Shown here piece after piece: positions 17,901-41,223 of a DNA stretch of 64,000 bases. Every line of letters begins with the position of its first letter. The first letter of the stretch is position 1. The notes below the pieces were generated by a model. It was given only the letters and a program-made list of their open reading frames with translations. It ran no database searches and was not told the origin of the DNA. The translations under genes and the position numbers were made by a program. The stretch covers positions 62,001 through 126,000 of the forward strand of contig NZ_JADPKR010000094.1 in the NCBI RefSeq assembly GCF_023074055.1, read 5' to 3'. This DNA comes from Bradyrhizobium sp. 141. GTDB taxonomy: Bacteria; Pseudomonadota; Alphaproteobacteria; Rhizobiales; Xanthobacteraceae.

Positions 17901-18632
17901 TCAGATCGCGCTGTCACCTTCGTGCTGGAAGCCGAGATAGCTGGCCGCGACGCGTTCATTCGCCGCGATGTCGCTGGCCTTGCCGCTGAGCACGAACTCA
18001 CCGAGCTCCATGACATAGGCCTGGTCCGCGATCTTCAGCGCGGCCTGCGCGTTCTGCTCGACCAGCAGCACGGAGACGCCGCTGGCGCGCAGCTCGGTGA
18101 CGATGCGGAAGATGTCGGCGACGATGATCGGGGCGAGGCCGAGGCTCGGCTCGTCCAGCATCAGGAGCTTCGGCTCGCCCATCAGCGCGCGGCCCATCGC
18201 GAGCATCTGCTGCTCGCCGCCGGAGAGCGTGCCGGCGAGCTGCTTGCGGCGCTCCTTCAGCCGCGGGAACAGCGTGTAGACGCGCTCCATCGACGCTTTC
18301 GCCTTGCTTCGCTCGATGCGAAAGGCCCCGAGCTCGAGATTGTCCTCGACATTCATGGTCACGAACAATTCGCGGTGCTCCGGGACGAGGCCGAGGCCCA
18401 TTGCGACGCGGTCCTCGATGTCGAGCCGGGCGAGATCCTGGCCGGCAAAGGTAACGCGGCCCTTCAGCGGCAAAATGCCCATGATGGCGGAAAGAAGCGT
18501 TGTCTTGCCGGCGCCGTTGGCGCCGACGATGGTGACGATCTGGTTGGCGCCGACCTCGAGCGAGACCGAGCGCACCGCTTCGACCTTGCCATAGGCGACA
18601 TGGGCGTCGGTGACGGACAACAGCGCGCTCAT
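17901..18632 (-). CDS. livF: Liv-type ABC transporter ATPase (LivF-like)
   Basis: A 243-residue ABC ATPase with Walker A GANGAGKTT (residues 37-45), signature LSGGEQQ, Walker B LLMLDEPSLGLAP and a His-switch replaced by the LivF-typical VEQNA. It works with the fused permease/LivG protein upstream, which it overlaps by four bases (ATGA). It is the last gene of this ABC operon. By context it powers uptake of the aromatic acids bound by the receptor at 5039. Confidence 0.92.
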   Translation of the reverse strand: MSALLSVTDAHVAYGKVEAVRSVSLEVGANQIVTIVGANGAGKTTLLSAIMGILPLKGRVTFAGQDLARLDIEDRVAMGLGLVPEHRELFVTMNVEDNLELGAFRIERSKAKASMERVYTLFPRLKERRKQLAGTLSGGEQQMLAMGRALMGEPKLLMLDEPSLGLAPIIVADIFRIVTELRASGVSVLLVEQNAQAALKIADQAYVMELGEFVLSGKASDIAANERVAASYLGFQHEGDSAI

Positions 18633-20398
18633 GCCGCCACTCCGAGATAGGCCTTGATCACTTCGGGGTTGGTCTTGATCGTGGCGGGGCTGCCCTCCGC
18701 GATCTTGGTGCCGAAATCGAGCACCACGATGCGGTCGGCGAGGTTCATCACGAAGCCCATGTCGTGCTCGACCAGGAGGACGCTCATGCCGCCGTCGCGC
18801 AAGTCCCGCAGCAACTTGGCGAGCTGCTGCTTCTCCATGTGGCGCAGGCCGGCGGCCGGCTCGTCGAGCAACAGCAGCATCGGATCGACGCAGAGCGCGC
18901 GGGCGATCTCGACGATGCGCTGCTGGCCGAGCGAGAGACTGCCCGCGAGCTGATGCATCTGCTCAGTGAGGCCGACACGCTCGATCTGGCGGGCGGCCTC
19001 CGCGAGCAGTTTTGCCTCATCAGTGCGGTCGAGCCGCAGCATCGAGGCAATCGGCCCCGAATGGCCGCGCAGATGCGCGCCGATCGCGACGTTTTCCAGC
19101 ACGGTCATGTCAGGCACCAGCTTGACGTGCTGGAAGGTCCTGCTGATGCCGAGCTTGACGATCTCCTGCGGCGGCGCCTTGTCGACCTTCCTGCCCAGCA
19201 CCGAGATCGAGCCTGAGGTCGCCGATAGCACGCCGGTGATCAGGTTGAACGTCGTGCTCTTGCCGGCGCCGTTCGGGCCGATCAGCGCGACGATCTCGCG
19301 GGCCTGGACGTCGAAGGAGACGTTGTTGACGGCGACCACGCCGCCGAACTGCTTTCGCGCTTTATCGACCTGGAGCAGGACGCTGGACTGGCCGGGCGAA
19401 CGGGTGCGCTGCGCCAGCTTCAGGGACGTGTCGGGCTTCTTGCCACGGGTAGGTTCAGGCAGGAACGACATCAGCCACGGCCAGAGGCCGCCGGGGGCGA
19501 GTTGCAACAGGGCCACCAGCATGATGCCGAACACGATGGTCTCGACCTGTCCGGAGCCGGGCAGGATCAGCGGCAAATAGCTTTGCAGCACCTCCTTCAG
19601 GACCACGACGATCGCCGCGCCCAGGACGCCGCCCCAGACATAGCCGGCGCCGCCGACCACGGCGATGAAGAGATATTCGATGCCGGCCTGGGCGCCGAAC
19701 GGTGTCGGGTTTACCGCGCGCTGGAGATGCGCATAGAGCCATCCCGAGAGGCCGGCGAGAACCGCGGCATGGATGAACACCAGCAATTTGGCACGGGGCG
19801 TGTGCACACCGAACGCTTCGGCTGCGACATGGCCGCGGCGCAGCGCGCGGATGGCGCGGCCGGTGCGGGAATCCAGCAGGTTCATCGTCAGCAGCGCCGA
19901 CACGATCACAGCGACCCAGATCGCGTAGTAGATCGAGCCGGGCGAGAGCATCTTGAACGTGCCGATCGAGAGCGGCGGGATTGCCGAGATGCCGTCGTTT
20001 CTCCCGAGGAATTCCAGCTTGCTGAAGAGATAGAACAGTCCTAACCCCCAGGCGAGGGTGCCGAGCGGCAGATAATGGCCGGAGAGGCGGACGGTGATCA
20101 GCCCGAGCAGCACCGCCAGCGAACCGCTGACGACCAGCGACAGCGGCAGCGTCAGCCAGGGCGACAGGCCATAGGCCGTCGACAGCACCGCGGTGGTGTA
20201 GGCGCCGAAGCCGACGAAGGCAGCCTGTCCGAACGAGGTCAGGCCGCCGACGCCGGTGAGCAGGACGAGGCCCATCGCGACCAGGGCCGCGAGACCGATA
20301 TTGTCGAGCAGCACGATCCAGAACGGGGGCATCCCCGGGACAAACGGGATCGCCGCCATGAGAGCTGCGAAGACGATGATGGGAAGCCGGCTCTGCAT
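18629..20398 (-). CDS. Fused LivM permease and LivG ATPase
   Basis: A 589-residue fusion. Residues 1 to about 312 are a LivM-type permease ([20 protein letters not shown] near 51-70, [15 protein letters not shown] near 184-198). A linker of about 30 residues follows, and the rest is a LivG-type ATPase with Walker [10 protein letters not shown] (374-382), signature [16 protein letters not shown], and [11 protein letters not shown]. The fusion explains why this importer has three non-receptor genes. I recall the R. palustris Cou system also having three (S, T, U). It starts seven bases after livH. Confidence 0.92.
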
Positions 20399-20405
20399 CT
20401 TGGCG

Positions 20406-21446
20406 TCAGTCCTTCTCTTCCTCGACCGCGGGCGCGGCGAGCGAGCGCAGCAGCAGCACGGGGATCAGCAGCATGAAAACGATCACCTCCTTGTAGTTGG
20501 AGGCATAGAAGGACGAGAACGCCTCGACGAGGCCGACGACCAGCGCCGCGACGGCGGTTAAGGGGTAGCTGACGAGGCCGCCGATGATCGCGGCGACGAA
20601 GCCCTTCAGGCCGATCAGGAAGCCGCTGTCATAGTAGAGCGTCGTGATCGGCACGATCATGATGCCCGACAACGCGCCGATGACGGATGCCAGCAGGAAG
20701 GCGATCTGCCCCGATAGTGTGGTGCGGATACCCACGAGTCGCGCCCCCAGCCGGTTCACGGCGGTCGCGCGCAGCGCCTTGCCGTAGAGCGTCAGGCCGA
20801 AGAACAGCCAGAGCCCGACGATGAAGGCGATGGTGATGCCGTAGACGGTGAGGCTCTGGCCGGTGAAGCGCAGCGCGCCGGCGGTGAAGGCGCCGGACAG
20901 CACGGCTGGTCCGCGCTGACCTTCGGCACCGAAGAACAGGAGGCCCAGTCCCTGCAGCGCGAGGTGGACGCCCACTGAGGCGATCAGCAGCACCAGCACG
21001 GAGGTGTGGGCCAGCGGCTGGAATGCGACGCGGTAGAGATAGAGGCCGATCATCGCCACGATCACCAGCGACAACGCGATGCTGACCGCGACCGGCGGCT
21101 TCTGGCCGGCGAAATACACGGTCAGGGCCAGCACGATGGCCGGCAGCACGATATTGGTGACAGCGCTGCGCAGGATCAGCCGCCCGTGCAGCGCCTTGCG
21201 CGCGACGAACAGGTCGAAGGCGAAGGCGCCGATGCCCAGCGCAAGCGCGAGCTTTGCCGTGCCCGGCATCTGGCCCGCCGCCAGCGAGGCATAGGTCAGC
21301 GCGCCGTAGGTGACGAATTCGCCCTGGGGAATGAGGATCACGCGGGTGACGGCGAACACCAGCACCAGCGCCAGGCCGAGCAGCGCATAAATCGCGCCAT
21401 TGGTGATGCCATCCTGCACCAGGAACAGCATGATGGTGGTATTCAA
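20406..21446 (-). CDS. livH: Liv-type ABC transporter permease (LivH-like)
   Basis: A 346-residue membrane permease with the LivH opening QDGITNGAIYALLGLALVLV and the EAA-loop-like KALRATAVNRLGARLVGI. A TTG at 21446 is preferred because aggggga lies about nine bases upstream; the ATG at 21431 lacks a ribosome binding site. It is the first gene of the permease-ATPase operon, divergent from the MarR gene, with an AT-rich inverted repeat between them. Confidence 0.88.
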   Translation of the reverse strand: MNTTIMLFLVQDGITNGAIYALLGLALVLVFAVTRVILIPQGEFVTYGALTYASLAAGQMPGTAKLALALGIGAFAFDLFVARKALHGRLILRSAVTNIVLPAIVLALTVYFAGQKPPVAVSIALSLVIVAMIGLYLYRVAFQPLAHTSVLVLLIASVGVHLALQGLGLLFFGAEGQRGPAVLSGAFTAGALRFTGQSLTVYGITIAFIVGLWLFFGLTLYGKALRATAVNRLGARLVGIRTTLSGQIAFLLASVIGALSGIMIVPITTLYYDSGFLIGLKGFVAAIIGGLVSYPLTAVAALVVGLVEAFSSFYASNYKEVIVFMLLIPVLLLRSLAAPAVEEEKD

Positions 21447-22258: not shown

Positions 22259-23542
22259 TCAATCCACCAAAATCACCCTGATATCATTCACGTTGGTCAG
22301 CGTCGGGCCCGGCAGCAGCAGGTCCCCCGTCGCCTCGAAGAACGCGGTGGCGTCGTTGTTGTCCAGGTAGGCCTGCGGCTGGAGCGCTAGCGCCTTCATC
22401 TTCGCGAACGTGGCCGCGTCGATCAGCGCGCCGGCGGGGTCGGTGGGGTTGCCGGCGCCGCCGTCGGCACCATCGGTGTCGGCGGCCAGCGCCGAGATAT
22501 CTGGCGTGTCCTTGAGCAGGCTGGCGAGCGCCAGCGCGTATTCCTGGTTCGGCCCGCCGCGCCCCTGGCCGCGCACGGTGACCGTGAGCTCGCCGCCGGA
22601 GAGGATCGCGAGGCGCTTGCCTTGCGCGCGTGCTTGCAGCGCCAGCCTGGCGTGAGCAGCGGCGACCTCGCGCGCCTCGCCCTCGAGATCGGCGCCGAGA
22701 TCGATCGTCTCGTAGCCGGATTCGCGCGCGAGCTTCACCGCGGCGTCGAGCGACTGCTTGGGTCGCGCGATCAATTCGAAACGCGCGCGCGCGAAGGCGG
22801 CATCGTCAGGCTTGCAGCTTTCGTTGCGTTCGTCCTCGAGCGCGCGGCGCACGGCGTCGTCGATGTCGAGCTTGTATTTCGCGACGTTGGCGCGCGCATC
22901 GGCCAGCGTGGTCGGATCGGGGACGGTCGGACCGGAGGCGATCGCGGAAGGATCGTCATGCGGCACGTCCGAGATCGCGAGCGTCACGATCTCGGCGGCA
23001 TTTTTGCCGGCGCGGGCGAGACGGCCGCCCTTGATCCGCGACAGATGTTTCCTCACCGTGTTCATCTCGCCGATCGGTGCGCCCGAGCGCAGCAGCGCCT
23101 TGTTGACGGCCTGCTTCTGCGCGAAGCTGATGCCGTCGCTCGGTGCGATCCAGTTCGCCGAGCCGCCGCCGGTGAGCAGCACCAGGAGCAGATCATCCGG
23201 CCTTGCCTCGCCTGCGAGCGCGAGCGTGTCGGCTGCGCCCTTGAGGCCGGCCTCATCGGGCACGGGATGTCCGGCTTCGACGACGCGGATGCGGCGCGTC
23301 GGCACGCCGTAGCCGTGGCGCGTGGTGGCGATGCCGACGAGGCGTTCCGGTGCGAGCTCGAGCGTGTCGAGATAATGCCGCTCGGCCGCTGCGGCCATGG
23401 CACCTGCGCCCTTGCCGGCGGCGAGGCAGATCACGCGTCCTTTGGGCGCGCGCGGCAAGTGCGGTGCCAGCACCACATTGGGATGGGCGGCGCCGACGGC
23501 GGCGTCGTAGAGCGCGCGGAGCAGGGGACGTCGGTCGGTCAT
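22259..23542 (-). CDS. Glycerate 2-kinase (MOFRL family)
   Basis: A 427-residue protein of the DUF4147/MOFRL glycerate kinase type, often named TtuD or GckA. It shows AAGKGAGAMAAAAERHY at the N-terminus, the glycine-rich LLTGGGSANWIAPSDGISF, ISDVPHDDPSAIASGPTV and the C-terminal GELTVTVRGQGRGGPNQEYA. It phosphorylates D-glycerate to 2-phosphoglycerate with ATP, for example in hydroxypyruvate or tartrate metabolism. The ATG at 23542 fits the family N-terminus. It stands alone, without hydroxypyruvate reductase nearby. Confidence 0.88.
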   Translation of the reverse strand: MTDRRPLLRALYDAAVGAAHPNVVLAPHLPRAPKGRVICLAAGKGAGAMAAAAERHYLDTLELAPERLVGIATTRHGYGVPTRRIRVVEAGHPVPDEAGLKGAADTLALAGEARPDDLLLVLLTGGGSANWIAPSDGISFAQKQAVNKALLRSGAPIGEMNTVRKHLSRIKGGRLARAGKNAAEIVTLAISDVPHDDPSAIASGPTVPDPTTLADARANVAKYKLDIDDAVRRALEDERNESCKPDDAAFARARFELIARPKQSLDAAVKLARESGYETIDLGADLEGEAREVAAAHARLALQARAQGKRLAILSGGELTVTVRGQGRGGPNQEYALALASLLKDTPDISALAADTDGADGGAGNPTDPAGALIDAATFAKMKALALQPQAYLDNNDATAFFEATGDLLLPGPTLTNVNDIRVILVD

Positions 23543-23680
23543 GACGATGGCCTTCGGCAGACGGAAGAAACCGGCGGCCAACGCCGCCGTTCACCTGCCT
23601 ACCGCATCGGGCGTCAAAGCGTAAGCCGGCTTTGCCATCATTCGATTATGCAATCGCGTGATCATAATCGGCGCGCAAGC

Positions 23681-23715
23681 AAAAGCCCCCTGCGATGGCC
23701 TCGCAGGGGGCTTTT
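23681..23715 (-). terminator. Strong bidirectional-looking terminator after receptor 1
   Basis: A perfect 15-bp stem (aaaagccccctgcga and its complement) with a five-base loop and T-tracts available on both strands. It lies 22 bases after the stop of the binding protein at 23737. Confidence 0.9.
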
Positions 23716-23736
23716 CGTCGTCAAATCGTCAGGCGG

Positions 23737-24966
23737 CTAGCCGCCGACGTCGGCGCTGATCACGTCGCCGAACAGTTCCCACTTCTCGCCCTTGAACCTC
23801 TCGAGCTGAAGCTGGCTGATCGGTGCGAAATCGGTCGGCGAGGTGTTGATCTTCACGCCCGGCAGCAGCGCCTCGGTACGGAAGTCCTTCAGGCTCGCCG
23901 CCTGCTTCATGACGTTCGCGCGGGTGAGATCGTCACCGCACTGCTTCAACACCTGCACGAGCGTCTGCGCCACGGCATAACCCACGATCGTGCCTTTATC
24001 GAGCTTGTCGCCCTCGGGGAAGTATTTGGTCATGAATGCCAGGAAGTCCTTCATGCCGGCATCGTTAGCCCACGCGGGATCCGACACGTCCTTCAGATAA
24101 TCGGCCGAGATGATGTCCTGGCCGTTCTCGAAGCCGGCGGGCTTCATCACGCTGCCGACCGAGGCCGAGACGTTGTTGAGGAAGTGCAGCGGCTTCCAGC
24201 CGATCTCGGCGTTCTTCTTGATCGCCTGCGCTGCGAATTTCGGCGTCGTGATGTTCATGAAGACGTCGGCGCCGGTCGACTTCAGCTTGACGATGTGATT
24301 GTCGACGGTCGGCTCGGAGGTCTCATAGCTCTCCTCCATGACGATCATCGAGGCGGCCTTGGCGCCGAGGCCGTCCTTCAGGCCCTTCAGGTAATCCTTG
24401 CCGTAATCGTCGTTCTGAAAGAGCACGGCGATCTTGGCGTCCGGCTTGTTCTTCAAGAGCCACTTCGCATAGATCTGCGTTTCGCTCTGGTAGTTGGGTT
24501 GCCAGCCCATGGTCCATGGGAAGTCCTTCGGATCGTTCCACTTGGTGGCGCCGGTGGCGACGAACAGCTGCGGCACCTTCTTGGAATTCATGTATTTGTG
24601 AATCGCCGAGTTCGGCGGCGTGCCGAGCGAGTTGAAGATGAACAGCACCTCGTCGCTCTCGACCAGCTTGCGCGCCTGCTCGACGGTCTTCGGCGGCGAA
24701 TAGCCATCGTCGTAGGAGATGAAGTTGATCTTGCGGCCATTGATGCCGCCCTCTTCGTTGATCTTCTTGAAATATGCGGCTTCGGTCCGCCCGATGATGC
24801 CGTAGGCGGAGGCCGGTCCGCTGTAGGGCATAATGTTGCCGATCTTGATCTCGGTATCGGTCGCGCCGGTATCGTATTTCTTCTGGGCCGACGCAGTGGA
24901 GGTCGTGGCCGCAAAGAGCGCGAGCGCCAGTGAAGCGGCCGCAAGCTTGCCGGTGACAGCGGGCAT
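23737..24966 (-). CDS. Liv-type ABC solute-binding protein, paralogue 1 of 4
   Basis: A 409-residue periplasmic type 1 binding protein with a Sec signal peptide ending STASAQ and the shared mature start KKYDTGATDTEIKIGNIMPY. The SGPASAYG loop (ligand carboxylate region) and the FVATGATKWNDPKDFPWTMG segment are common to the four paralogues. It has its own terminator and a 179-base upstream gap, so it is probably an independent transcript. Its partner permease is most likely that at 29245-32666. The ligand is unknown; medium-chain or dicarboxylic acids are suggested by the nearby pim-like operon. Confidence 0.88.
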   Translation of the reverse strand: MPAVTGKLAAASLALALFAATTSTASAQKKYDTGATDTEIKIGNIMPYSGPASAYGIIGRTEAAYFKKINEEGGINGRKINFISYDDGYSPPKTVEQARKLVESDEVLFIFNSLGTPPNSAIHKYMNSKKVPQLFVATGATKWNDPKDFPWTMGWQPNYQSETQIYAKWLLKNKPDAKIAVLFQNDDYGKDYLKGLKDGLGAKAASMIVMEESYETSEPTVDNHIVKLKSTGADVFMNITTPKFAAQAIKKNAEIGWKPLHFLNNVSASVGSVMKPAGFENGQDIISADYLKDVSDPAWANDAGMKDFLAFMTKYFPEGDKLDKGTIVGYAVAQTLVQVLKQCGDDLTRANVMKQAASLKDFRTEALLPGVKINTSPTDFAPISQLQLERFKGEKWELFGDVISADVGG

Positions 24967-25073
24967 TCCTATCTCCCTATTTTCTTGGTGTGTGTGCGTC
25001 CCTTTTCTTGGCTTGATTGTTTTTGGCGACGCTGCCGCAATTCAATACGATTTACCCGAGGGCTTCAAGGAAA

Positions 25074-25100
25074 AGCCCTTGCGGCAAGGCCGCAGGGGCT
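25074..25100 (-). terminator. Terminator after receptor 2
   Basis: A 12-bp stem with one G-U pair, formed by agcccttgcggc and gccgcaggggct, has a three-base loop; the A-run at 25071-25074 becomes a T-run on the minus strand. It lies 46 bases beyond the stop at 25146. Confidence 0.8.
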
Positions 25101-25145
25101 GCGTCTTTAGTCGATTTGGGCCATATCTTCAGTGACTGGTTAATG

Positions 25146-26375
25146 TCAGCCGCCGACGTCGCCGCTCAGGATGTCGCCAAATCGCTCCCAGTTCTCGCCC
25201 TTGAACCGGATCAGTTGCAGCTGCGAGAGCGGTGCGAAATCGGTCGCTGAGGTGTTCACCTTGATGCCCGGCAACAGGCCGGCCGGCTCGTAGTCCTTGA
25301 TGTTGGCGGCATGCTTCATGACGTTCTCGCGGGTCAGATTGTCACCGCAGGCCTTGAGCACGTGAACGAGGCCCTGGCTGACGATGTAGCCATACATCAC
25401 AGCGGCGTCGGCGCGGTTCGCTTCCGGATAGTACTTGTCCAGGAATTCGTTCCAGCCGATCATCGCCGGGTCGCTCTTCCACTGCGCGTCGGTGGGATCC
25501 TTGAAATATTGCGACGAGATGACGTCCTGCGCGTTCTCGAAGCCGGCCGGCTTGATCACGCTGCCGATCGAGTTCGAGACGTTGTTGAGGAAATGCAGCG
25601 GCTTCCAGCTGAGCTCGGCGTTCTTCTTGATCGCCTGCGCCGCGAATTTCGGCGTGGTGATGTTCATGAAGACGTCGGCGCCTGAGGCCTTCAGTCTCAC
25701 GATGTGCGAATCGATGGTCGGCTCGGAGACCTCATAGGTGTCCTCGATGACGATCATCGAGGCCGCCTTGGCGCCGAGCCCGTCCTTGAAGCCCTTCAGA
25801 TAGTCCTTGCCGTAATCGTCGTTCTGATAGAGCACCGCGATCTTGGCGTCCGGCTTGTTCTTCAGGATATACTTGGCATAGATGACGGTCTCGCTCTGGT
25901 AGTTCGGCTGCCAGCCCATCGTCCACGGAAAGTTCTGCGGGTCGTTCCACTTGGTGGCGCCGGTGGCGACGAACAGCTGCGGCACCTTCTTCTGGTTCAG
26001 ATACTTCTGAATCGCAGAGTTCGGCGGCGTGCCGAGCGAGTTGAAGACCACGAGCACCTCGTCGCTCTCGACCAGCTTGCGCGCCTGCTCCACGGTCTTC
26101 GGCGGCGAATAGGCGTCGTCATAGGAGACGAAGTTAATCTTGCGGCCGTTGATGCCGCCTTCCGCATTGATCTTGCGGAAATATGCCTCCTCGGTCTTGC
26201 CGATCACGCCGTAGGCGGAGGCTGGTCCGCTGTAGGGCATGATATTGCCGATCTTGATTTCGCTGTCGGATGCGCCGGTGTCGTATTTCTTCTGCGCGAA
26301 CGCTGTCGTGGATAGCGTGGCAGCCAGCACGAGGGCGGCCGACAAGGCCCCCAATCGCACATGCATTGCAGGCAT
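25146..26375 (-). CDS. Liv-type ABC solute-binding protein, paralogue 2 of 4
   Basis: A 409-residue paralogue of the 23737 gene. The signal peptide ends STTAFAQ, then KKYDTGASDSEIKIGNIMPY. It differs mainly in the C-terminal lobe (DPAMIGWNEFLDKYYPEANR), where ligand specificity could vary. The ATG at 26375 follows gggaga. It has its own terminator and a 248-base upstream region. Confidence 0.88.
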   Translation of the reverse strand: MPAMHVRLGALSAALVLAATLSTTAFAQKKYDTGASDSEIKIGNIMPYSGPASAYGVIGKTEEAYFRKINAEGGINGRKINFVSYDDAYSPPKTVEQARKLVESDEVLVVFNSLGTPPNSAIQKYLNQKKVPQLFVATGATKWNDPQNFPWTMGWQPNYQSETVIYAKYILKNKPDAKIAVLYQNDDYGKDYLKGFKDGLGAKAASMIVIEDTYEVSEPTIDSHIVRLKASGADVFMNITTPKFAAQAIKKNAELSWKPLHFLNNVSNSIGSVIKPAGFENAQDVISSQYFKDPTDAQWKSDPAMIGWNEFLDKYYPEANRADAAVMYGYIVSQGLVHVLKACGDNLTRENVMKHAANIKDYEPAGLLPGIKVNTSATDFAPLSQLQLIRFKGENWERFGDILSGDVGG

Positions 26376-26623
26376 CTTGCTCTCCCTAGGTCGGTTTGAA
26401 TGTGTCGATGTTCTTGATTGGAAGCGATCGTTTCGCGTCGCTCCGGCACACATTCAATACCCTTCCCAGGCGGCCAGCAAGGAGAACGCCTTTGCAGCTA
26501 GGCGATCTTTATTCGAGACGATGCGGAATATTCCGGCGCGTGAGATGAAATGCGCCGTCAATCGGCTGCGCGGAAGTTGTCTTGTGGAATATAAGCTATT
26601 TTTAATTGTGAGCCCGCTCGGCT

Positions 26624-27850
26624 TCAGTGACCGGTCTCGCTGGAGATGATGTCGCCGAACGGCTCCCATTTCCGGCCCTTGAAGCGCATCATCTGGAGCT
26701 GCTCGATCGGGGCAAAATTGTCCGGCGCGGTGTTGATCTTGATGCCGGGCAGCAGCGTGTCGGGTGCGAAATCCTTCAGGCGGGCGGCCTGCTTCATGAC
26801 GTTCTCGCGGGTGAGATCGTCGCCGCACATCTGCAACACCTTCACCATGGTCTGCGCGGCGGCGTAACCGAACACGACGCCGGCATCGAGCTTGTTGGCC
26901 TTGGGATCGTATTGCGCGAGGAAACTATAGAACCTCTTCATGCCGTCGTCGGCGTTCCACTGCGGATCGGCGCCGTCCTTGAGGTAGCTCGCCGACAGGA
27001 TGCCCTGGGAGATCTCGAGGCCCGCCGGCTCGATCACGCCGCCGACCGAGGCCGAGACGTTGGAGACGATGTGGACCGGATGCCAGTTGATCTCCGCCGC
27101 CTTCTTGATCGCCTGCGCGGCGAACTTCGGCGTGGTGATGCTGATGAACACGTCGGCGCCCGAGGCCTTCAGCTTGACGACGTGTTCATCGATCGCGGGC
27201 TCGGAGGTGTCGTAGGCCTCCTCCAGCACGATCATCGAGGCCTTGGCGCCGAGACCGTCCTTCAGCCCCTTCAGATAGTCCTTGCCGAAATCGTCGTTCT
27301 GGTAGAGCACGCCGATCTTTCCGTCAGGCTTTTCCTTCATGATGTACTTGGCATAGATGCGCGCTTCGCTCGCGTAGCTCGGCTGCCAGCCCATGGTCCA
27401 GGGATATTGCTTGGGATCGTTCCACTTCGAGGCGCCGCTCGCCACGAACAATTGCGGCACCTTCTTCTCGTTCATGTATTTGCGGATGGCGCCGTTGGTG
27501 GACGTTCCGAGCGAACCGAAAATCAGGAGCACCCCGTCGCTCTCGACCAGCTTGCGTGCCTGCTCCACCGTCTTCGGTGGCGAATAGGCGTCGTCATAGG
27601 AGATGAACCTGATCTTGCGACCGTTGATGCCGCCCTCGGCGTTGACCTTGCTGAAATAGGCTTCCTCGGCCTTGCCGATCGCGGCATAGGCCGAGGCCGG
27701 GCCGCTATAGGGCATGATGTTGCCGATCTTGATCTCGGTATCGGAGGCGCCGCTGTCGTACTTTTTCTGCGCCAGTGCCGGGTTGCTCATCGCAGTGCAC
27801 AAAGCGAGCCCGGTCCAGAGGGCCACAACCTGAAAACGAACGGCGGTCAT
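26624..27850 (-). CDS. Liv-type ABC solute-binding protein, paralogue 3 of 4
   Basis: A 408-residue member of the array and probably the most divergent by eye: KYDSGASDTEIKIG at the mature start, SLGTSTNGAIRKYMNEKK where the others have LGTPPNSAIQKY-like sequence, and FIAQ-region changes (FVASGASKWNDPKQYPWTMG). The signal peptide ends NPALAQ. The ATG at 27850 follows ggagaac. I see no strong terminator immediately downstream. It shares the same putative permease partners. Confidence 0.87.
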   Translation of the reverse strand: MTAVRFQVVALWTGLALCTAMSNPALAQKKYDSGASDTEIKIGNIMPYSGPASAYAAIGKAEEAYFSKVNAEGGINGRKIRFISYDDAYSPPKTVEQARKLVESDGVLLIFGSLGTSTNGAIRKYMNEKKVPQLFVASGASKWNDPKQYPWTMGWQPSYASEARIYAKYIMKEKPDGKIGVLYQNDDFGKDYLKGLKDGLGAKASMIVLEEAYDTSEPAIDEHVVKLKASGADVFISITTPKFAAQAIKKAAEINWHPVHIVSNVSASVGGVIEPAGLEISQGILSASYLKDGADPQWNADDGMKRFYSFLAQYDPKANKLDAGVVFGYAAAQTMVKVLQMCGDDLTRENVMKQAARLKDFAPDTLLPGIKINTAPDNFAPIEQLQMMRFKGRKWEPFGDIISSETGH

Positions 27851-27913
27851 TGTTCTCCTACCCCGAGTTGGATCGGCGCCGCATTGAACAAGATTGACGC
27901 CAGCCGTCAACAA

Positions 27914-27943
27914 AAAGCCCCCGCGATCGTTCGCGGGGGCTTT
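27914..27943 (-). terminator. Terminator after receptor 4
   Basis: A perfect 13-bp stem, aaagcccccgcga and its complement, with a TCGT loop and a T-run on the minus strand. It closes the operon livG-livF-livH-livM-receptor 4 and separates it from the three downstream receptor genes. Confidence 0.9.
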
Positions 27944-27970
27944 CGAGGGGCGGACTATTGCGTCAGCGTG

Positions 27971-29206
27971 TCACTCGGAAGCGACGTCGCCGCTGATGAT
28001 CTCGCCAAACAGTTCCCACTTCTCACCCTTGAAGCGCTGCATCTGGAGCTGCGAAATCGGGGCGAAGTCGGTGGCGCTGGTGTTGAGCTTGACGCCGGGC
28101 AGCATGGTGTCCGGCGTGAAGTCCTTCAACGAGGCCGCCTGCTTCATGATGTTGGCGCGGGTCAGATCGTCGCCGCACATTTCCAGCACCTTGGCGAGGG
28201 TCGAGGCGGCGCCATAGCCGTACACCATGCTGGTGTCCGACTTGTCGGCGCCCGGCATGTACTTGTCGACGAACTCGTTCCACTTTTTCATGCCGGGGTC
28301 GTTGGCCCACTGCGGATCCGTCGAATCCTTGGCATAGGCCGCCGACAGCACGCCCTGCGCGTTCTCGAAACCGGCCGGCTTCATCACGCTGCCGACCGAG
28401 ATCGACACGTTGGTAAGGATTTGGAGCGGCTTCCAGCTCAGCTCGGCGGTCTTCTTGATGGTCTGGGCCGCGAACTTCGGCGTGGTGTAGATCAGCAGCA
28501 CGTCGGGATTGGCGGCCTTGATCTTGACGATATGGCCGTCGATCGACGGCTCGGAGACCTCGTAGCTCTCCTCCATGATGATCATGGACGAGGCCTTGGC
28601 GCCGAGGCCGTCCTTGGTGCCCTTGAGGTAGTCTTTGCCGAAATCGTCGTTCTGATAGAGGATCGCGACCTTGGCGTCCGGCTTCTCTTTCATCAGCCAT
28701 TTCGCGTAGATCTGCGCTTCGCTCTGGTAGGAGGGCTGCCAGCCGATGGTCCAGGGGAAGTTCTTCGGGTCGTTCCACTTGGTGGCGCCGGTGGCGACGA
28801 AGAGCTGCGGGATCTTCTTGGCGTTGAGGTATTTCTGGATCGCCGTGTTCGAGGGCGTGCCGAGCGGGTTGAACACCACCAGAACCTCGTCGCTCTCGAC
28901 CAGCTTGCGGACCTGCTCGACGGCCTTCGGCGGCGAATAGCCGTCGTCGTAGGTGACGAAGTTGATCTTGCGGCCGTTGATGCCGCCCTTGTCGTTGATC
29001 ATCCGGAAATAGGCTTCTTCGGTCTTGCCGATGACGCCATAAGCCGACGCCGGACCGCTATACGGCATGATGTTGCCGATCTTGATCTCGGTGTCGGACG
29101 CCCCGGTGTCGTATTTCTTTTGAGCGAGTGCAGCGCCGGAGGTGAGGGCAATGGCCGCCGTTGCCGTGACCAGCGCGGCGGCTCGCAGTGTTCTTTCAAA
29201 ACGCAA
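27971..29206 (-). CDS. Liv-type ABC solute-binding protein, paralogue 4, operon member
   Basis: A 411-residue paralogue that lies 39 bases downstream of livM and ends at a terminator, so it is the receptor co-transcribed with the permease. The signal peptide ends GAALAQ and the mature part opens KKYDTGASDTEIKIGNIMPY. A TTG at 29206 is the start: aaggag (29212-29218 on the minus strand) is well placed and no ATG lies nearby. It ends DVASE, where paralogues 1 and 2 end DVGG. Confidence 0.9.
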   Translation of the reverse strand: MRFERTLRAAALVTATAAIALTSGAALAQKKYDTGASDTEIKIGNIMPYSGPASAYGVIGKTEEAYFRMINDKGGINGRKINFVTYDDGYSPPKAVEQVRKLVESDEVLVVFNPLGTPSNTAIQKYLNAKKIPQLFVATGATKWNDPKNFPWTIGWQPSYQSEAQIYAKWLMKEKPDAKVAILYQNDDFGKDYLKGTKDGLGAKASSMIIMEESYEVSEPSIDGHIVKIKAANPDVLLIYTTPKFAAQTIKKTAELSWKPLQILTNVSISVGSVMKPAGFENAQGVLSAAYAKDSTDPQWANDPGMKKWNEFVDKYMPGADKSDTSMVYGYGAASTLAKVLEMCGDDLTRANIMKQAASLKDFTPDTMLPGVKLNTSATDFAPISQLQMQRFKGEKWELFGEIISGDVASE

Positions 29207-29244: not shown

Positions 29245-30264
29245 TCAGTTTCTTCTGAGCTTGTCGGCGAATTGCTGGCCCAGGATCGCGATCTGCCTCG
29301 CGCCATGCGGCACGAGGTAGATGACGAGGAACAGCAGGACGCCGAATACCGCGCCGGAGAGGCCCTTGGAGATGCTTTCCGCCATGTTCGGCACGAAGAT
29401 GATGAAGGCAGCACCGACGAACGAGCCGGGCAGCCAGCCGACGCCGCCGACGACCATGCCGAGGAACAGCGAGATCGCCAGCGTGATGGTGTAGCTGTCG
29501 GGCGCGACGAACTGCACGGCGATGGCGCCAAGCGAGCCGGCAACGCCGGTAATGCCGGCGGACACCCCGAAGGCCAGCGTCTTGTACCGCGCGACGTTGA
29601 CACCCATCGAGGAGGCCGCGATCTCGTTGTCGCGGATCGCCATGAAGGCGCGGCCCGAGCGGGAGCGCAGCAGGTTCACCGAGAAGATGTAGATCGCGAG
29701 CGTCACGAGGAGGGTGAAATAGTACAACCACATGTCCTGCGACATCGGCAGGCCGAATGGCGCGTCAGGCTTGGTGACGACGAGGCCCTGCACGCCGCCG
29801 GTCCAGTGCTCGAGGAAGTTCAGCTTCAGCAGCTGCGGCATCGCGGTGGCAAGCGCGAAGGTCGCGAGCGCGAGATAGACGCCCGAAAGCCGCAGCGCCG
29901 GCTTGCCGAACAGGTAACCGAATCCGAAGCAGACCGTTGCGGAAATCGGAATCGTCAGCGCGTAGTTGATGTTGGCGTGCTCCATCAGCACCGCCGACGT
30001 ATAGGCGCCGACGGCGTAGAACGCGCTCTGGCCGAGCGAGAACTGGCCGGAGCCACCCGTCAGGATGTTCAGCGCCAGCACGGCCAGCCCGTAGATCAGG
30101 AGCATCGTCATCTGGAAGATGATGAAGTTCTTGACGAACACCGGCACGATCAACAGCACCACCAGCACCAACAGCGAGGTGCCCGTGCCCAGCGTCATGG
30201 CCCGCTTCGGAACCGCCTCGACCGCTTCGTGGCCTTCGCCAACGACTTCTTCTGCAGCGCTCAT
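29245..30264 (-). CDS. livM: Liv-type ABC permease (LivM-like)
   Basis: A 339-residue membrane permease with LivM motifs LTGGSGQFSLGQSAFYAVGAY (positions about 88-108) and the EAA-like FMAIRDNEIAASSMGVNVAR. A charged cytoplasmic leader of about 25 residues precedes the first helix. The ATG at 30264 is two bases after the livH stop; a TTG at 30270 would overlap that stop as TTGA and is also possible. It forms the heterodimeric pore with LivH. Confidence 0.9.
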   Translation of the reverse strand: MSAAEEVVGEGHEAVEAVPKRAMTLGTGTSLLVLVVLLIVPVFVKNFIIFQMTMLLIYGLAVLALNILTGGSGQFSLGQSAFYAVGAYTSAVLMEHANINYALTIPISATVCFGFGYLFGKPALRLSGVYLALATFALATAMPQLLKLNFLEHWTGGVQGLVVTKPDAPFGLPMSQDMWLYYFTLLVTLAIYIFSVNLLRSRSGRAFMAIRDNEIAASSMGVNVARYKTLAFGVSAGITGVAGSLGAIAVQFVAPDSYTITLAISLFLGMVVGGVGWLPGSFVGAAFIIFVPNMAESISKGLSGAVFGVLLFLVIYLVPHGARQIAILGQQFADKLRRN

Positions 30265-30266
30265 GA

Positions 30267-31145
30267 TCAAACTCGCTTGACGATTTGCCGGCCGAACAGG
30301 CCAGCGGGTTTGACGACCAGGACGGAGATGATCAGCGCGAGCGCGATCGGAAGTTTCAGCTCGTTGCCGACGCCGGGGATGTAGGTGCCGGCGAGGTTCT
30401 CGAAGACGCCGACCAGGAAGCCGCCGACCACGGCGCCGAACGGGCTGGTCAGTCCGCCGAGCACCGCGGCGGCGAAGCCGTAGATCAGCACGCCGCCCAT
30501 CATGTTGGGCTCGAGGAACACGACCGGAGCAATCAGCATGCCGGCGATCGCACCAATCGCGGTCGCCATGCCCCAGCCGAGCGCGATCATCCAGGACGTG
30601 TTGATGCCGACCAGCCGGGCCGATTCAGGCACCGAGGCGGCCGCACGCATCGCAAGGCCGATGCGCGTGTACTGGAAGAAGAAGTAGAGGCCGAGCAGCA
30701 GCAGCACGGTGACGCCGATCATGCCGGCCTGGTGGGTCGAGATCAGCTGGCTGCCCAGGAACGGCGAGGAGCCGAACGGGGTCGGATACTGCTTGATGGT
30801 GAAGTCCCAGATCAGGCCGGCCGAGGAGTTGATGATCGCAAACAGCGCGATGAAGCCGGCGACATTGGTCAGCACCGGTGCCTTGGCGAGCGGCTTGAAC
30901 AGGATGCGCTCGATCGCGATGCCGGCGACAAAGGAGAATGCCAGCGTGATGATGAAGGCGGCCCAATAGGACACGCCCCACTGCATCAGCTGCCAAGAGA
31001 TGAAGGTCGAGAACATCGCCATCTCGCCTTGCGCGAAGTTGAGATGGTCGATGGCCTGGTAGATCATGACCACGGCGAGCGCCATACAGGCATAGATCGC
31101 GCCGGTGGCGATGCCGGCCAGGACCTGGTTAGTGAACAGCTCCAT
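30267..31145 (-). CDS. livH: Liv-type ABC permease (LivH-like)
   Basis: A 292-residue permease opening MELFTNQVLAGIATGAIYAC, with the LivH segment IDHLNFAQGEMAMFSTFISW and the coupling loop GLAMRAAASVPESARLVGIN. The ATG at 31145 is 13 bases after the livF stop. It pairs with LivM to import the ligands delivered by the receptors downstream. Confidence 0.92.
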   Translation of the reverse strand: MELFTNQVLAGIATGAIYACMALAVVMIYQAIDHLNFAQGEMAMFSTFISWQLMQWGVSYWAAFIITLAFSFVAGIAIERILFKPLAKAPVLTNVAGFIALFAIINSSAGLIWDFTIKQYPTPFGSSPFLGSQLISTHQAGMIGVTVLLLLGLYFFFQYTRIGLAMRAAASVPESARLVGINTSWMIALGWGMATAIGAIAGMLIAPVVFLEPNMMGGVLIYGFAAAVLGGLTSPFGAVVGGFLVGVFENLAGTYIPGVGNELKLPIALALIISVLVVKPAGLFGRQIVKRV

Positions 31146-31158
31146 TGTCCCGGCTCCC

Positions 31159-31868
31159 TCAGTAACCCAGATAGGATTTGCGGATTTCTTCGTTGTTCGC
31201 GATGTCCTTGGCATTGCCCGACATCACGATGCGGCCGGTCTCGATCACATAGGCTTGGTCGGCGAGTTCGAGCGCGAGTTGGGCGTTCTGCTCGACCACC
31301 AGGATCGACACCTTGTCCTCGCGGTTGATCTTGCCGAGGATGCCGAACAGGTCGCGCACGACCAGCGGGGCGAGGCCGAAGGACGGCTCGTCCAGCAGCA
31401 TCAGCCGCGGCCGCAGCATCAGGGCACGGGCAACCGCGAGCATTTGCTGCTCGCCGCCGGACAGCGTGCCGGCCTGCTGAGTGTGGCGCTGCTTCAGCAC
31501 CGGGAAATGCGCGTACATCCGCTCGATGTCGGAGACGATGCCGGCGCTGTCCTTGCGGGTGATGGCCCCGAGCTGGAGGTTCTCCTCCACCGTCATGGTG
31601 GTGAAGGTGCCGCGGCCCTGCGGCACATGGGCGATGCCGAACCGCACGATGTTCTCGGTCGAGCGGTTGTTCAGCGGCTTGCCGTCGAACTCGATCGCGC
31701 CGGTCGAGCGCACCATGTTGCAGATCGCGCGCAGCGTGGTGGTCTTGCCGGCGCCGTTGGCACCCAGCAGCGTCACGAGCGAGCCCTCGTTGAGCGAGAA
31801 GGACAGGCCATGGAGCGCCTGGACCTGGCCGTAATAGGCGCGCAGGTCCTTGACGTTGAGCAGCGTCG

Positions 31869-31872
<4 letters not shown>
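31159..31872 (-). CDS. livF: Liv-type ABC ATPase (LivF-like)
   Basis: A 237-residue ATPase with Walker A GANGAGKTT (residues 37-45), LSGGEQQMLAVARAL and Walker B LMLLDEPSFGLAP. It overlaps the livG stop by four bases and energises the LivH-LivM pore. Confidence 0.93.
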
Positions 31873-32666
<794 letters not shown>

Positions 32667-32732
32667 CTCGTCTCGCCCACATCGTTCAGTGAGCGAAGGG
32701 GCGATGCGAACCGCTCCCGATGATGACAAAGG

Positions 32733-33599
32733 CTATCTGAATCCCTCGGCCACACGCGCAACTTTCCCTCCTGATTTCAGCTTTTTGCTGACGTCTTTTT
32801 TGGAATGCGGCATCAGACCCCCGAGCGCCGCTTCGATGTTCCTTACCATCGCTAAGAGACGCGGTCCAATGTCGTTGATCAAATGCTCTTCCGTGAAACG
32901 GAATGCGGGCGCGCCGCAATTGAATGCGTAAGGACCGGTTCCGTCGTTGAGCTTGAGCGCGACGCCGGCGGCGCCGATGTCGTCGTGCCAGTCGCCGACG
33001 GAGATCGCAAAGCCGTATTTCGCGACGGTCTCGCCGGAACGTTCCAATCCATCGCGCATCTTCGGCCAGCGGCTGCCGTAATGCTCGCGCAGCAGGCGCG
33101 AGAGTTCTGCGCGATCGTCGCTGTCGAGCGCCCAGAAATAGGCGCGACCCATCGCGCTGGTTGCAATCGGCACGCGGGCCCCGACGTCAAGTTGGACACC
33201 GACCGTCTCGCTGCCGCGGCTCTGCCCGAAATAGATCATGCTGTGACGGTCGCGGCCGCCGACGGCGACGGCGCCGCCGGTCGCGCGCATCACGTCCTCG
33301 CGAAACGGTTCGGACAAATGCCGAACACCGAGATTGGCGAGCGCTGCGTAGCCGAGCGACATGGCGGCGGGCGTGAGCTGGTACTTCTCGAAGCGGGGAA
33401 CCGGCGCCAGATAGCCGAGCTTGGTCAGTGTATAGGTCAGGCGTGACACGGTCGGCTTCGGCAGGTTGGTCCGCGCCGCGATCTCCTGATTGCCGAGAAG
33501 GCCGTCATTGGGTTCGAATGCGCGCAATACGTCCAGTCCGCGGGAAAGCGCGACGACGAAGTTCCGATCGGTCGCGGTCTTCTTTCCTGTACGCTTCAT
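32733..33599 (-). CDS. IclR-family transcriptional regulator
   Basis: A 288-residue IclR protein: N-terminal winged helix (SRGLDVLRAFEPNDGLLGNQ, then AARTNLPKPTVSRLTYTLTKLGYL) and a C-terminal effector domain with VGARVPIATSAMGRAYFWAL, the usual ligand pocket region. It lies between the importer operon and the divergent acyl-CoA operon and probably controls both. The palindrome at 33667-33685 is its likely operator. The effector may be a dicarboxylate or acyl-CoA; this is inference. Confidence 0.88.
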   Translation of the reverse strand: MKRTGKKTATDRNFVVALSRGLDVLRAFEPNDGLLGNQEIAARTNLPKPTVSRLTYTLTKLGYLAPVPRFEKYQLTPAAMSLGYAALANLGVRHLSEPFREDVMRATGGAVAVGGRDRHSMIYFGQSRGSETVGVQLDVGARVPIATSAMGRAYFWALDSDDRAELSRLLREHYGSRWPKMRDGLERSGETVAKYGFAISVGDWHDDIGAAGVALKLNDGTGPYAFNCGAPAFRFTEEHLINDIGPRLLAMVRNIEAALGGLMPHSKKDVSKKLKSGGKVARVAEGFR

Positions 33600-33666
33600 C
33601 CCTGATCTGCTTCTTGCGCGGAGTCGTTGACAACGTCCGTGCTTCAAAATAACCCTGCCGTCAAGA

Positions 33667-33685
33667 TGCGGAATTAAATTCCGCA
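33667..33685. promoter_or_regulatory. 19-bp perfect palindrome, probable IclR operator
   Basis: tgcggaattaaattccgca is perfectly symmetrical around one base. It lies 68 bases before the regulator start and 46 bases before the divergent operon's GTG. Its GGAATT/AATTCC core resembles known IclR-family sites. Confidence 0.75.
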
Positions 33686-33730
33686 CCGCGAAATCGACAA
33701 AAGTATATAGCCCCACCAAGGAGGGACACC

Positions 33731-35827
<2,097 letters not shown>

Positions 35828-35852
35828 TGGGGCTTTGCGCTCCAACTCTCAG

Positions 35853-35888
35853 TCATTCCGGGTTCGCCCTTCGGGCGCCCCGGAATGA
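35853..35888. repeat. Short palindromic element between pimF- and pimA-like genes
   Basis: tcattccgg and ccggaatga enclose the inner inverted pair cgcccttcgggcg, forming a long hairpin. A related sequence starts at 63305. Within the operon it may attenuate or stabilise the transcript. Confidence 0.75.
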
Positions 35889-35911
35889 TTGCTGTGTGGT
35901 TTAAGGAAGCA

Positions 35912-37573
35912 ATGACCCATCCTGGCGAACAGTTTTACCCCGAGGGCGTGCGGTGGGACGACACCATCGTCCAGGGCTCGCTGCCTGACCTGCTGGCAAA
36001 AGCCGCCGCCGACTACGGCCCGCGCACCGCGCTGGAATTCCGGGACCGTTCGATCACCTATGCCGAGCTCGCCGCGATGGCCGAGCGCGCCGCCGCGGCG
36101 TTCCTGCGCGCCGGCTGCGGCAAGGGCACGTCAGTCGCGCTGTTCCTCGGCAATTCGCCGGATCACCCCGTCAATTTCTTCGGCGCGCTGAGGGCCGGCG
36201 CCCGCATTGCGCATCTGTCGCCGCTCGACGGCGAGATCGCACTGACGCACAAGGTCTCCGATTCCGGCTCGCGCCTGCTCGTCACGTCCAATCTCGCAGC
36301 GCTGCTGCCGAACGCGCTGAAGTTTCTGGAGAAGGGGCTGATCGATCGCCTCGTCGTCTGCGAGGACGATCATTGGGGCAAGGTCGGCACGCCGCAGGCG
36401 GCGATCCCCAATGATCCCCGCATCGTGACCTTCAAGGCGTTCGTCGAGGGTGCGACCACACCGGCAGAATGGCCTGCCGTGACGGCAGACGACGTCGCGC
36501 TGCTGCAATATACCGGCGGCACCACCGGCCTGCCCAAGGGCGCGATGCTCACGCACGGCAATCTCACCTCCGCTGTGTCGATCTACGACGTCTGGGGCAA
36601 GCCGTCGCGTGCCGCGCGCGGCGACGTGATTGAACGCGCGATCTGCGTGCTGCCGCTGTTCCACATCTATGCGCTCACCGTGGTGCTGCTCTCCTCGCTC
36701 AGCCGCGGCAATCTGATCTCGCTGCATCAGCGCTTCGACGTCGAAGCCGTCATGCGCGACATCGAGGTCAAGCGCGCGACGTATTTTCCGGGCGTGCCGA
36801 CGATGTGGATCGCGATCGCCGCGCTCCCCGACCTCGACAAGCGCGACTTCTCCTCGCTCGCCACCATCGGCTCCGGTGGCGCGCCGCTGCCGGTGGAGAC
36901 CGCGAACTTCTTCGAACGCAAGGTCGGCAAGAAGCTGCGCAGCGGCTGGGGCATGACCGAGACCTGCTCGCCCGGGACCGGTCATCCGCCCACAGGTCCC
37001 GACAAGCCGGGCTCGATCGGCCTGATGCTGCCCGGCATCGAGCTCGATGTGGTCGCGCTGGACAATCCGACAAAAGTGCTGCCGCCGGGCGAAGTCGGCG
37101 AGATCCGCATCAAGGGGCCGAACGTTACTCAAGGCTACTGGAACAAGCCCGAGGGATCGGCGGAGGCCTTCGTCGACGGCCGCTTCCTCACGGGCGACAT
37201 CGGCTATGTCGACACCGACGGCTATTTCTTCCTGGTCGATCGCAAGAAGGACATGATCATCTCCGGCGGCTTCAACGTCTATCCGCAGATGATCGAGCAG
37301 GCGATCTACACCATTCCAGGCGTGCACGAGGTGATCGTGCTCGGCATTCCCGACCCCTATCGCGGCGAGGCCGCAAAGGCCTTCATCAAGCTGAAGCCGG
37401 ACGCAAAGCTGCTCTCGCTAGACGAGCTGCGCGCGCAGCTCGCCGGCAAGCTCGGCAAGCATGAATTACCGGCCGCGGTCGAATTCGTCGACGATCTGCC
37501 GCGCACGCCGGTCGGAAAGTTGTCGCGGCATGAATTGCGCCAGCAGCAGAAACCGTCACAATCCAAACCATAG
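35912..37573 (+). CDS. pimA: Long-chain/dicarboxylic acyl-CoA ligase (PimA-like)
   Basis: A 553-residue ANL-family ligase with LLQYTGGTTGLPKGAM (P-loop, about residues 193-208), GWGMTETCS, the aspartate motif FLTGDIGYVD, DRKKDMIISGG, and the C-terminal lysine segment DLPRTPVGKLSRHELR. It activates fatty or dicarboxylic acids to CoA esters. The ATG at 35912 is chosen for the preceding aaggaag; nine further residues are possible. It is the ligase of the pim-like operon, but other fatty acids are possible substrates. Confidence 0.82.
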   Translation: MTHPGEQFYPEGVRWDDTIVQGSLPDLLAKAAADYGPRTALEFRDRSITYAELAAMAERAAAAFLRAGCGKGTSVALFLGNSPDHPVNFFGALRAGARIAHLSPLDGEIALTHKVSDSGSRLLVTSNLAALLPNALKFLEKGLIDRLVVCEDDHWGKVGTPQAAIPNDPRIVTFKAFVEGATTPAEWPAVTADDVALLQYTGGTTGLPKGAMLTHGNLTSAVSIYDVWGKPSRAARGDVIERAICVLPLFHIYALTVVLLSSLSRGNLISLHQRFDVEAVMRDIEVKRATYFPGVPTMWIAIAALPDLDKRDFSSLATIGSGGAPLPVETANFFERKVGKKLRSGWGMTETCSPGTGHPPTGPDKPGSIGLMLPGIELDVVALDNPTKVLPPGEVGEIRIKGPNVTQGYWNKPEGSAEAFVDGRFLTGDIGYVDTDGYFFLVDRKKDMIISGGFNVYPQMIEQAIYTIPGVHEVIVLGIPDPYRGEAAKAFIKLKPDAKLLSLDELRAQLAGKLGKHELPAAVEFVDDLPRTPVGKLSRHELRQQQKPSQSKP

Positions 37574-37598
37574 ATAAGTAAGTTCACAGGAGGATCCG

Positions 37599-38789: not shown

Positions 38790-38813
38790 TCGCACCTCGT
38801 CACCACGCACTTG

Positions 38814-38896
38814 CCGTCATTGCCGGGCTTGACCCGGCCATCCACGCCTAACGGCACGAAGAACGTGGATGCCCGGCACAAGGCCGGGCATGACGA
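38814..38896. repeat. Palindromic intergenic repeat, family A, between pimC and pimD
   Basis: gtcattgccgggcttgaccc and the complementary gcacaaggccgggcatgacg flank an inner atccacg/cgtggat pair. It lies between two genes whose products should act in equal amounts. Confidence 0.85.
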
Positions 38897-38922
38897 CATC
38901 AATACCGGGAGAGTAGAGAAAC

Positions 38923-40065: not shown

Positions 40066-40100
40066 TCGCCGTAACGCGAGGCGGCAGCCGCACAAAGATC

Positions 40101-40181
40101 GTCATGCCCGGGCTTGTCCCGGGCATCCACGTCTTGGCGGCGAGAAGAACGTGGATGGCCGGGACAAGCCCGGCCATGACG
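40101..40181. repeat. Palindromic intergenic repeat, family A
   Basis: gtcatgcccgggcttgtccc and gggacaagcccggccatgac with the inner atccacgt/acgtggat pair. It lies between the pimD-like and SDR genes. Confidence 0.85.
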
Positions 40182-40220
40182 GTGGAGCAAGCAAGCACGA
40201 AGTAGAAGAGGAAGCAGGTA

Positions 40221-40994: not shown

Positions 40995-41000
40995 CGGATC

Positions 41001-41122
41001 GTGTCCCGGACGCATTGCAGCGCGAAGCGCTGCTATGCTGAGCCGGGACCCAGCAGCCCTGGCATTGGGCCCCGGCTCAGCAGCGCACCGCCAAGGCGCT
41101 GCGCTGCGTCCGGGGCACGAGA
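41001..41122. repeat. Palindromic intergenic repeat, family C
   Basis: A unit of about 120 bases starting gtgtcccggacgc and ending gcgtccggggcacgag, with inner tgagccgggaccca and gggccccggctca. Copies also occur at 45091 and 52805. It lies between the SDR gene and glpK. Confidence 0.85.
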
Positions 41123-41223
41123 CCGAGTCCAACCTTGACCTTCCGCCTCCAATCCGCTCCCTTTGGCGCGACACAATGACTCCCTCCAGGGAAACGCCAA
41201 GCTAGACGCCAGGGTAAGCCGCC

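Follow-up and report, generated by a model that had tools for sequence, protein, structure and literature searches.

In Bradyrhizobium sp. 141, one Liv-type ABC importer core may serve many exchangeable receptors: four encoded in an array directly behind it, and others dispersed over the genome. We hold this to be somewhat better than an even bet, with a probability of roughly 0.55. The genome has one LivM permease like that of the array, the next best being 39% identical, and 18 receptors that are at least 44% identical to the array's first receptor, R4, the next being 28% identical. Four of the 18 make up the array; the remaining 14 are spread over 13 loci. LivM and receptors occur together across genomes, the receptor groups of the array are old and their number varies, and one of the receptors that is dispersed here is an array member in other genera. 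An earlier note on this DNA had suggested a single importer with separately transcribed, exchangeable receptors; the single LivM, the hairpins within the array and the variable copy number bear that suggestion out in part; separate transcription is inferred, as are the ligands in Bradyrhizobium sp. 141.

The array lies in a stretch of 64,000 nt (the window), positions 62,001–126,000 of the forward strand of NZ_JADPKR010000094.1 in assembly GCF_023074055.1, a genome of 8.5 Mb in 123 contigs (G000). Transcribed from the minus strand are, in this order, an IclR-type regulator (32733–33719; PF09339, PF01614), the ATPases LivG (31869–32729) and LivF (31159–31872), each with PF00005 and with the NCBIfam model of its own name as top match, under the cut-off, the permeases LivH (30267–31214) and LivM (29245–30270), both PF02653, and the receptors R4 (27971–29206), R3 (26624–27913), R2 (25146–26453) and R1 (23737–24966). 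Two permeases and two ATPases encoded beside receptors are the makings of a Liv-type importer, and this one adjoins pim genes, identified with NCBIfam and Pfam, which run divergently from the regulator on the plus strand (33731–40065). PimA (35885–37573), PimC (37599–38789) and PimD (38923–40065) exceed the NCBIfam cut-offs of TIGR03205, TIGR03204 and TIGR03203; a PimF-like protein (33731–35827) matches FadB/FadJ models only, under the cut-off. Within window positions 33731–42729 the order is F-like, A, C, D and then a glycerol kinase, with neither pimB nor pimE adjoining the pim genes there. Past R1 come a glycerate-kinase-like gene, GckA (22259–23581, minus strand; PF13660, PF05161 and synteny), which flanks the array in many relatives, then a MarR gene on the opposite strand, and then a second set of Liv permease genes, set B (17901–21446, minus strand), which the earlier note does not mention.

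Four head-to-tail Liv-type receptors of 408–411 residues had been described in the earlier note, and four there are: minus-strand ORFs with PF13458 matches at all four places, every one carrying the motifs KKYD(T/S)GA, SGPASAY and KWNDP that the note had named. The lengths hold if R2 starts at the internal ATG at 26375 and R3 at the one at 27850, as is likely and as we have chosen, and fail for the longest ORFs, of 435 and 429 codons. R4, the copy scanned individually against Pfam, matches PF13458 with an E-value of 1.2e-57; R1 matched no NCBIfam model at 1e-20. In the pairwise check that the note proposed, the mature parts of R1–R4 are 68–76% identical as proteins and 75–80% as DNA, far above chance.

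R4 starts 38 nt past the end of LivM. Hairpins of the terminator type lie where terminators had been claimed, 3′ of R4 (27911–27960, minus strand; −27.2 kcal/mol, z −4.8), 3′ of R1 (23680–23730, minus strand; −30.0 kcal/mol, z −7.2) and, more weakly, 3′ of R2 (25060–25120, minus strand; −20.7 kcal/mol, z −2.1, with 9 of 200 shuffles equally good). No such hairpin was seen in the folded stretch after R3 (z +0.9). These values come from folding; a simple consensus scan found the hairpin of R2 and missed those of R4 and R1. Conservation extends over 66 loci in the region 5′ of R3, just past the R4 hairpin, and over 27 and 29 loci in the region 5′ of R1; both regions may contain promoters. In the leader of R2 (window 26376–26623) there is a palindrome, CGGAATATTCCG, partly conserved in 31 aligned loci and possibly an operator.

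The 14 dispersed receptors all lie outside the window. In 13 cases PF02653 genes are lacking within 7 kb of the receptor or from the contig altogether; the exception is at C12, where one occurs at 3.2 kb, next to a receptor from a different family (PF13407). Genes for receptors of the core's own subfamily are found, then, away from any permease gene in 13 of 14 cases, which is the arrangement of the orphan BraC3 taken up below. The receptor gene on C10 (L095:9458–10657; G000 C10:27058–28257, minus strand), whose product is 61% identical to R4, has its reading frame interrupted by a single TGA, codon 175 of 400, the mark of a pseudogene or of a sequencing error. Twenty more Liv-type receptors, of other subfamilies, are likewise without a PF02653 gene within 7 kb in G000, and orphan Liv receptors are therefore common in this genome. 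From these lists of other receptors we left out five of the 69 PF13458 matches, which were weak or partial.

Enzymes of CoA metabolism adjoin 9 of the 13 dispersed loci, by a scan of 55 neighboring genes picked with a crude gene caller (it took the wrong strand for the L094 receptor). The immediate neighbor of the receptor gene is an AMP-binding-family ligase at C16, C105, C1 and C32; at C28 such a ligase is the second gene, and at one of the C53 loci it lies at a distance of 3.7 kb. The other C53 locus has a thiolase-like gene, a CoA-transferase and an enoyl-CoA hydratase; C92 has a CoA-transferase and C56 an acyl-CoA dehydrogenase as neighbor. At C10, C2, C15 and C12, no CoA enzyme gene occurs among the scanned neighbors. 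A ligase within 3 kb is found for 5 of the 14 dispersed receptors, where about 5% would be expected to have one (binomial p 0.0004). We considered whether this association might be peculiar to the array's subfamily. It is found also for 4 of the 20 other orphan Liv receptors (p 0.26), and for 4 of 26 permease-linked receptors, and so the link to ligases is not specific to the subfamily.

Wherever this LivM occurs, so do the receptors. We compared 119 genomes of the family and 385 of the class, two sets that share at least G000 and G024, calling LivM at E-values up to 1e-80 in the family set and counting receptors among the best 15 (family) or best 4 (class) scored candidates per genome. In the family set, LivM is present in 51 genomes and a receptor in 54, and all 51 genomes with LivM have receptors; in the class set the numbers are 28 and 35, and again all 28 have receptors. 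Two genomes of the 51, G021 and G095, have two LivM each, and the highest receptor counts per genome are at least 15. A Fisher test for co-occurrence gives p 1.7e-30, a value overstated by the relatedness of the genomes, which are not independent. Ten genomes have receptors only. We weighed them as counter-examples and set eight of them aside: in seven of the class and in G004, a receptor of the subfamily has permease genes as neighbors, the adjoining LivM being 43–52% identical. As for the other two, in G115 a LivM fragment, 44% identical, lies at the end of a contig, and G030, an assembly that is 82% complete, has no LivM above 40%. Throughout the class, receptor and pim-type permease have stayed linked.

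Array members and satellites may have traded places. The dispersed receptor at C16 groups, with an SH-aLRT support of 100, with receptors inside the pim loci of two other genera: the second receptor behind LivM in G005, to which it is 87% identical, and the third behind LivM in G067, at 85%. To R1–R4 it is 64–69% identical. A receptor outside the pim locus in G043 groups with an array member of G095 (support 96). The tree in question holds 120 receptors; the C10 receptor was omitted for its stop codon, and the placement is unsure for the long rows from this genome itself (C28, C12, C53b, C56, C15, C105 and C32). A different arrangement is found in the genus g26, where two receptors stay with the pim permease (seen in G026 and G066) and five, among them relatives of R1 and R4, lie away from it, together with GckA, MarR and set B (seen in G026, G066 and G107). 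Such patterns would fit exchangeable receptors, and would fit plain rearrangement too. The earlier note had held that receptors whose closest relatives stand next to a different permease in other genomes would speak against a shared importer. That situation is found in part, in one genus only.

Set B is the main reason to think again. Perhaps only the receptors of the array, or only some of them, use the pim permease, and the dispersed ones serve other Liv permeases (set B, for example) or act as sensors. The correlation of set B with receptor number is the chief argument for this alternative. An orthologue of the LivH of set B, at about 69% identity or more, is present in 29 of the 119 family genomes. 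The pim LivM is present as well in 28 of these, and among the matches listed the 28 have a median of 11 receptors (range 3 to at least 15), against a median of 1 (range 1–4) in the 23 genomes without set B. Within the genus g28, G089 (L142; 4.1 Mb) has no set B and two receptors, both in the pim locus; three relatives in the genus have from 11 to at least 15. The five g26 receptors lie near set B, and among the 66 PF02653 matches in the genome of the window are dozens of other permeases that dispersed receptors might use. The counts even suggested that set B is an orphan permease in need of the array, an idea weakened by the finding that set B seems to have a receptor family of its own. In the window this is represented by SBPx (5039–6190, minus strand; PF13458), a distinct Liv-type receptor 11.7 kb from set B. 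Among 22 set-B loci, picked from the matches and not at random, 20 have an SBPx relative in the fetched stretch, in seven cases immediately 5′ of LivH_B and in the same orientation; at L155–L159 the relative is only 35–43% identical, and in L131 and L153 none was found. We do not count the g26 block as a refutation for this very reason. Set B occurs, moreover, in genomes without receptors of the subfamily, G007 being one of those at about 69% or more, and its correlation with receptor number may mark only a clade. Set B comprises LivH_B, a LivM–LivG fusion and LivF_B; the fusion is one protein of 589 residues (18629–20398; PF02653 and PF00005). In our reading set B is not the cognate core of the array. 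With C16, a satellite here whose nearest relatives are array members elsewhere, and with receptor linkage to the pim-type permease maintained across the class, the alternative strikes us as unlikely, if hardly negligible.

Within the array itself, copy number is variable and the copies are old. Eighty loci of the Bradyrhizobium type were collected by LivM, of which 70 contain both LivM and GckA and count as complete. Labeled by best BLAST match, 29 of the 70 read R4-R3-R1, 24 read R4-R3-R2-R1 and four read R4-R3-R2-R2; the remaining 13 show various other arrangements with two to five matches, some perhaps partial genes. Array size thus ranges from two to five receptors across Bradyrhizobium. 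R2 is absent from 29 of the complete loci, and on a tree of flanking genes (71 tips) its presence changes at least nine times, by loss, gain or exchange. We also built a tree of 125 receptors, taken from the window itself and from 33 chosen loci among the 80. In it, R2 and R3 each occupy one side of a branch; R1 and R4 each need three changes, because fifth copies and divergent loci were labeled only by best BLAST match. These groups tell us that the four receptors are old: R1–R4 are orthologous groups whose order has been kept across Bradyrhizobium. Values of dN/dS against orthologues (0.03–0.29 in 21 comparisons) indicate purifying selection.

The earlier note had also supposed that copy number varies by unequal recombination. 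The variation is real, from two to five copies; the recombination, if recent, is another matter. Origin of R1–R4 by recent duplication of this kind is ruled out by the tree of old groups, and in four of the 29 R2-less loci (L013, L017, L025 and L070) the junction is intergenic, R3 and R1 are of full length, and no gene-to-gene crossover or chimeric neighbor was seen. Global alignment of the gaps between receptors was uninformative for several loci.

What the receptors bind is suggested by Rhodopseudomonas palustris, where both RPA3724 and RPA3723 have fatty and dicarboxylic acids as ligands, in differing profiles, and RPA3725 bound none of the ligands tested (PMC3223731). Differing ligand profiles, another expectation of the earlier note, are in this way already published for two of three homologues, in the parts of that work consulted (PMC3223731). 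We take R4 to be orthologous to RPA3724, and R1 to RPA3725, as pairwise identities suggest: those in G108 and G028 fit the published values of 71% and 60%, a match of percentages rather than a direct comparison with the named RPA sequences. A structure model of R4 (mean pLDDT 91.5) has 4n03, titled a fatty acid receptor, as its closest fold (Z 43.8), with 3lop (Z 42.7) and 3lkb (Z 42.4) nearly tied and many Liv receptors following; the model, with membership of the Peripla_BP_6 family (PF13458), places R4 among Liv-type receptors. Searched with a profile built from R1–R4 only, the solved structures yielded no match at 1e-20; a profile of 42 sequences did match some.

The pocket of R1–R4, which we take to be lined by the positions of the LBP contact residues, was compared with the rest of the protein. 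Positions that distinguish R1–R4 make up 7 of 40 near this presumed pocket and 30 of 343 elsewhere (p 0.09, not significant), one of the 37 being a gap column. We excluded 11 named sequences and every row from L082, L084 and L086, because the 125-receptor tree put them outside the groups or at their edges. That the four are near-redundant copies kept for dosage or for regulation by growth conditions, rather than for ligand range, might be argued from their 68–76% identity, this weak enrichment, the comings and goings of R2 and the separate hairpins, and is nonetheless improbable, for R1–R4 are old, distinct groups under purifying selection and the published profiles of RPA3724 and RPA3723 differ (PMC3223731).

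We return to the reading that we prefer, a core shared by array and dispersed receptors. In its favor we count the single LivM against 18 receptors, the 13 of 14 dispersed receptors without a near permease, the co-occurrence of LivM and receptors, the relation of C16 to arrays, the CoA enzymes at 9 of 13 loci, the 4n03 fold and, from the published work consulted, the R. palustris ligand profiles and the BraC3 precedent. Against it we count the 66 PF02653 matches, the non-specificity of ligase proximity, the tracking of set B by receptor number, the g26 block, the likely R1 homologue RPA3725 without a ligand, the relatedness of the genomes and the p of 0.09 for the pocket. The importer would take up fatty and dicarboxylic acids of medium and long chain length, probably along with further carboxylic acids, and feed them to the β-oxidation encoded by the pim (dicarboxylate) genes. 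Its single permease/ATPase core, LivHMGF, would accept several periplasmic receptors. R4, directly behind the core, would be the basal receptor, and R3, R2 and R1, behind terminators or long gaps, would widen the range of ligands. The 14 dispersed receptors, several of them beside acyl-CoA ligases or other CoA enzymes, would probably dock on the same LivHMGF, each probably importing the acid that the adjoining enzyme activates; such docking on the array's core is suggested, indirectly, by co-occurrence and by the relation of array members to satellites. Taken one step further, a single ABC core would act as a hub for about 18 receptors that move between the array and satellite loci by CoA enzymes, and a new substrate would call for a receptor and an activating enzyme, and for no new importer. 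This extended version we offer tentatively, at slightly less than even odds.

If dispersed receptors do share one core, then counts of transporters based on operons miss much of the uptake range of these soil bacteria, and duplication of a receptor alone can widen the range of ligands. There would also be a home for a group of the orphan Liv-type receptors that these genomes carry. The family also provides a graded series, from 44 to 100% identical to R4, with which to ask how much divergence of its receptors an ABC core tolerates while docking is kept. New in this work are a fourth position in the array, the age of the array and its changes in copy number, and chiefly the 14 dispersed receptors found with a single core; of these we recognized no earlier report in the literature searched, a body outside which most subscription journals fall. 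Several receptors per ABC importer is reportedly a general idea, to judge by the title of Thomas's 'Homes for the orphans' of 2010.

The shared permease is itself not a new idea. Giuliani et al. put it forward in 2011, together with ligand data, for the R. palustris homologue, in which two receptors and the transporter by pimFABCDE were held to provide broad-range uptake of fatty and dicarboxylic acids (PMC3223731). Both systems have tandem receptors beside a Liv transporter and pim genes; the R. palustris array (RPA3723–3725) has three, whereas that of the window has four, and in the parts of that work consulted, receptors encoded elsewhere are not tied to the pim-linked transporter, whereas here 14 dispersed ones are proposed to be (PMC3223731). 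In Rhizobium leguminosarum, the orphan receptor BraC3 uses the Bra core, as genetics has demonstrated (PMC2978685). The likeness lies in an orphan Liv-type receptor with its Liv core encoded elsewhere; the difference is that BraC3 is one orphan, with amino acid ligands and genetic proof, in the parts of that account consulted, whereas ours number 14 and are known from sequence alone (PMC2978685). A further parallel is offered by the Bug/TctC receptors of Bordetella, which, in what was consulted of that source, are likewise many orphans with few membrane components, but belong to tripartite tricarboxylate transporters rather than ABC importers, and have another fold (PMC5812351).
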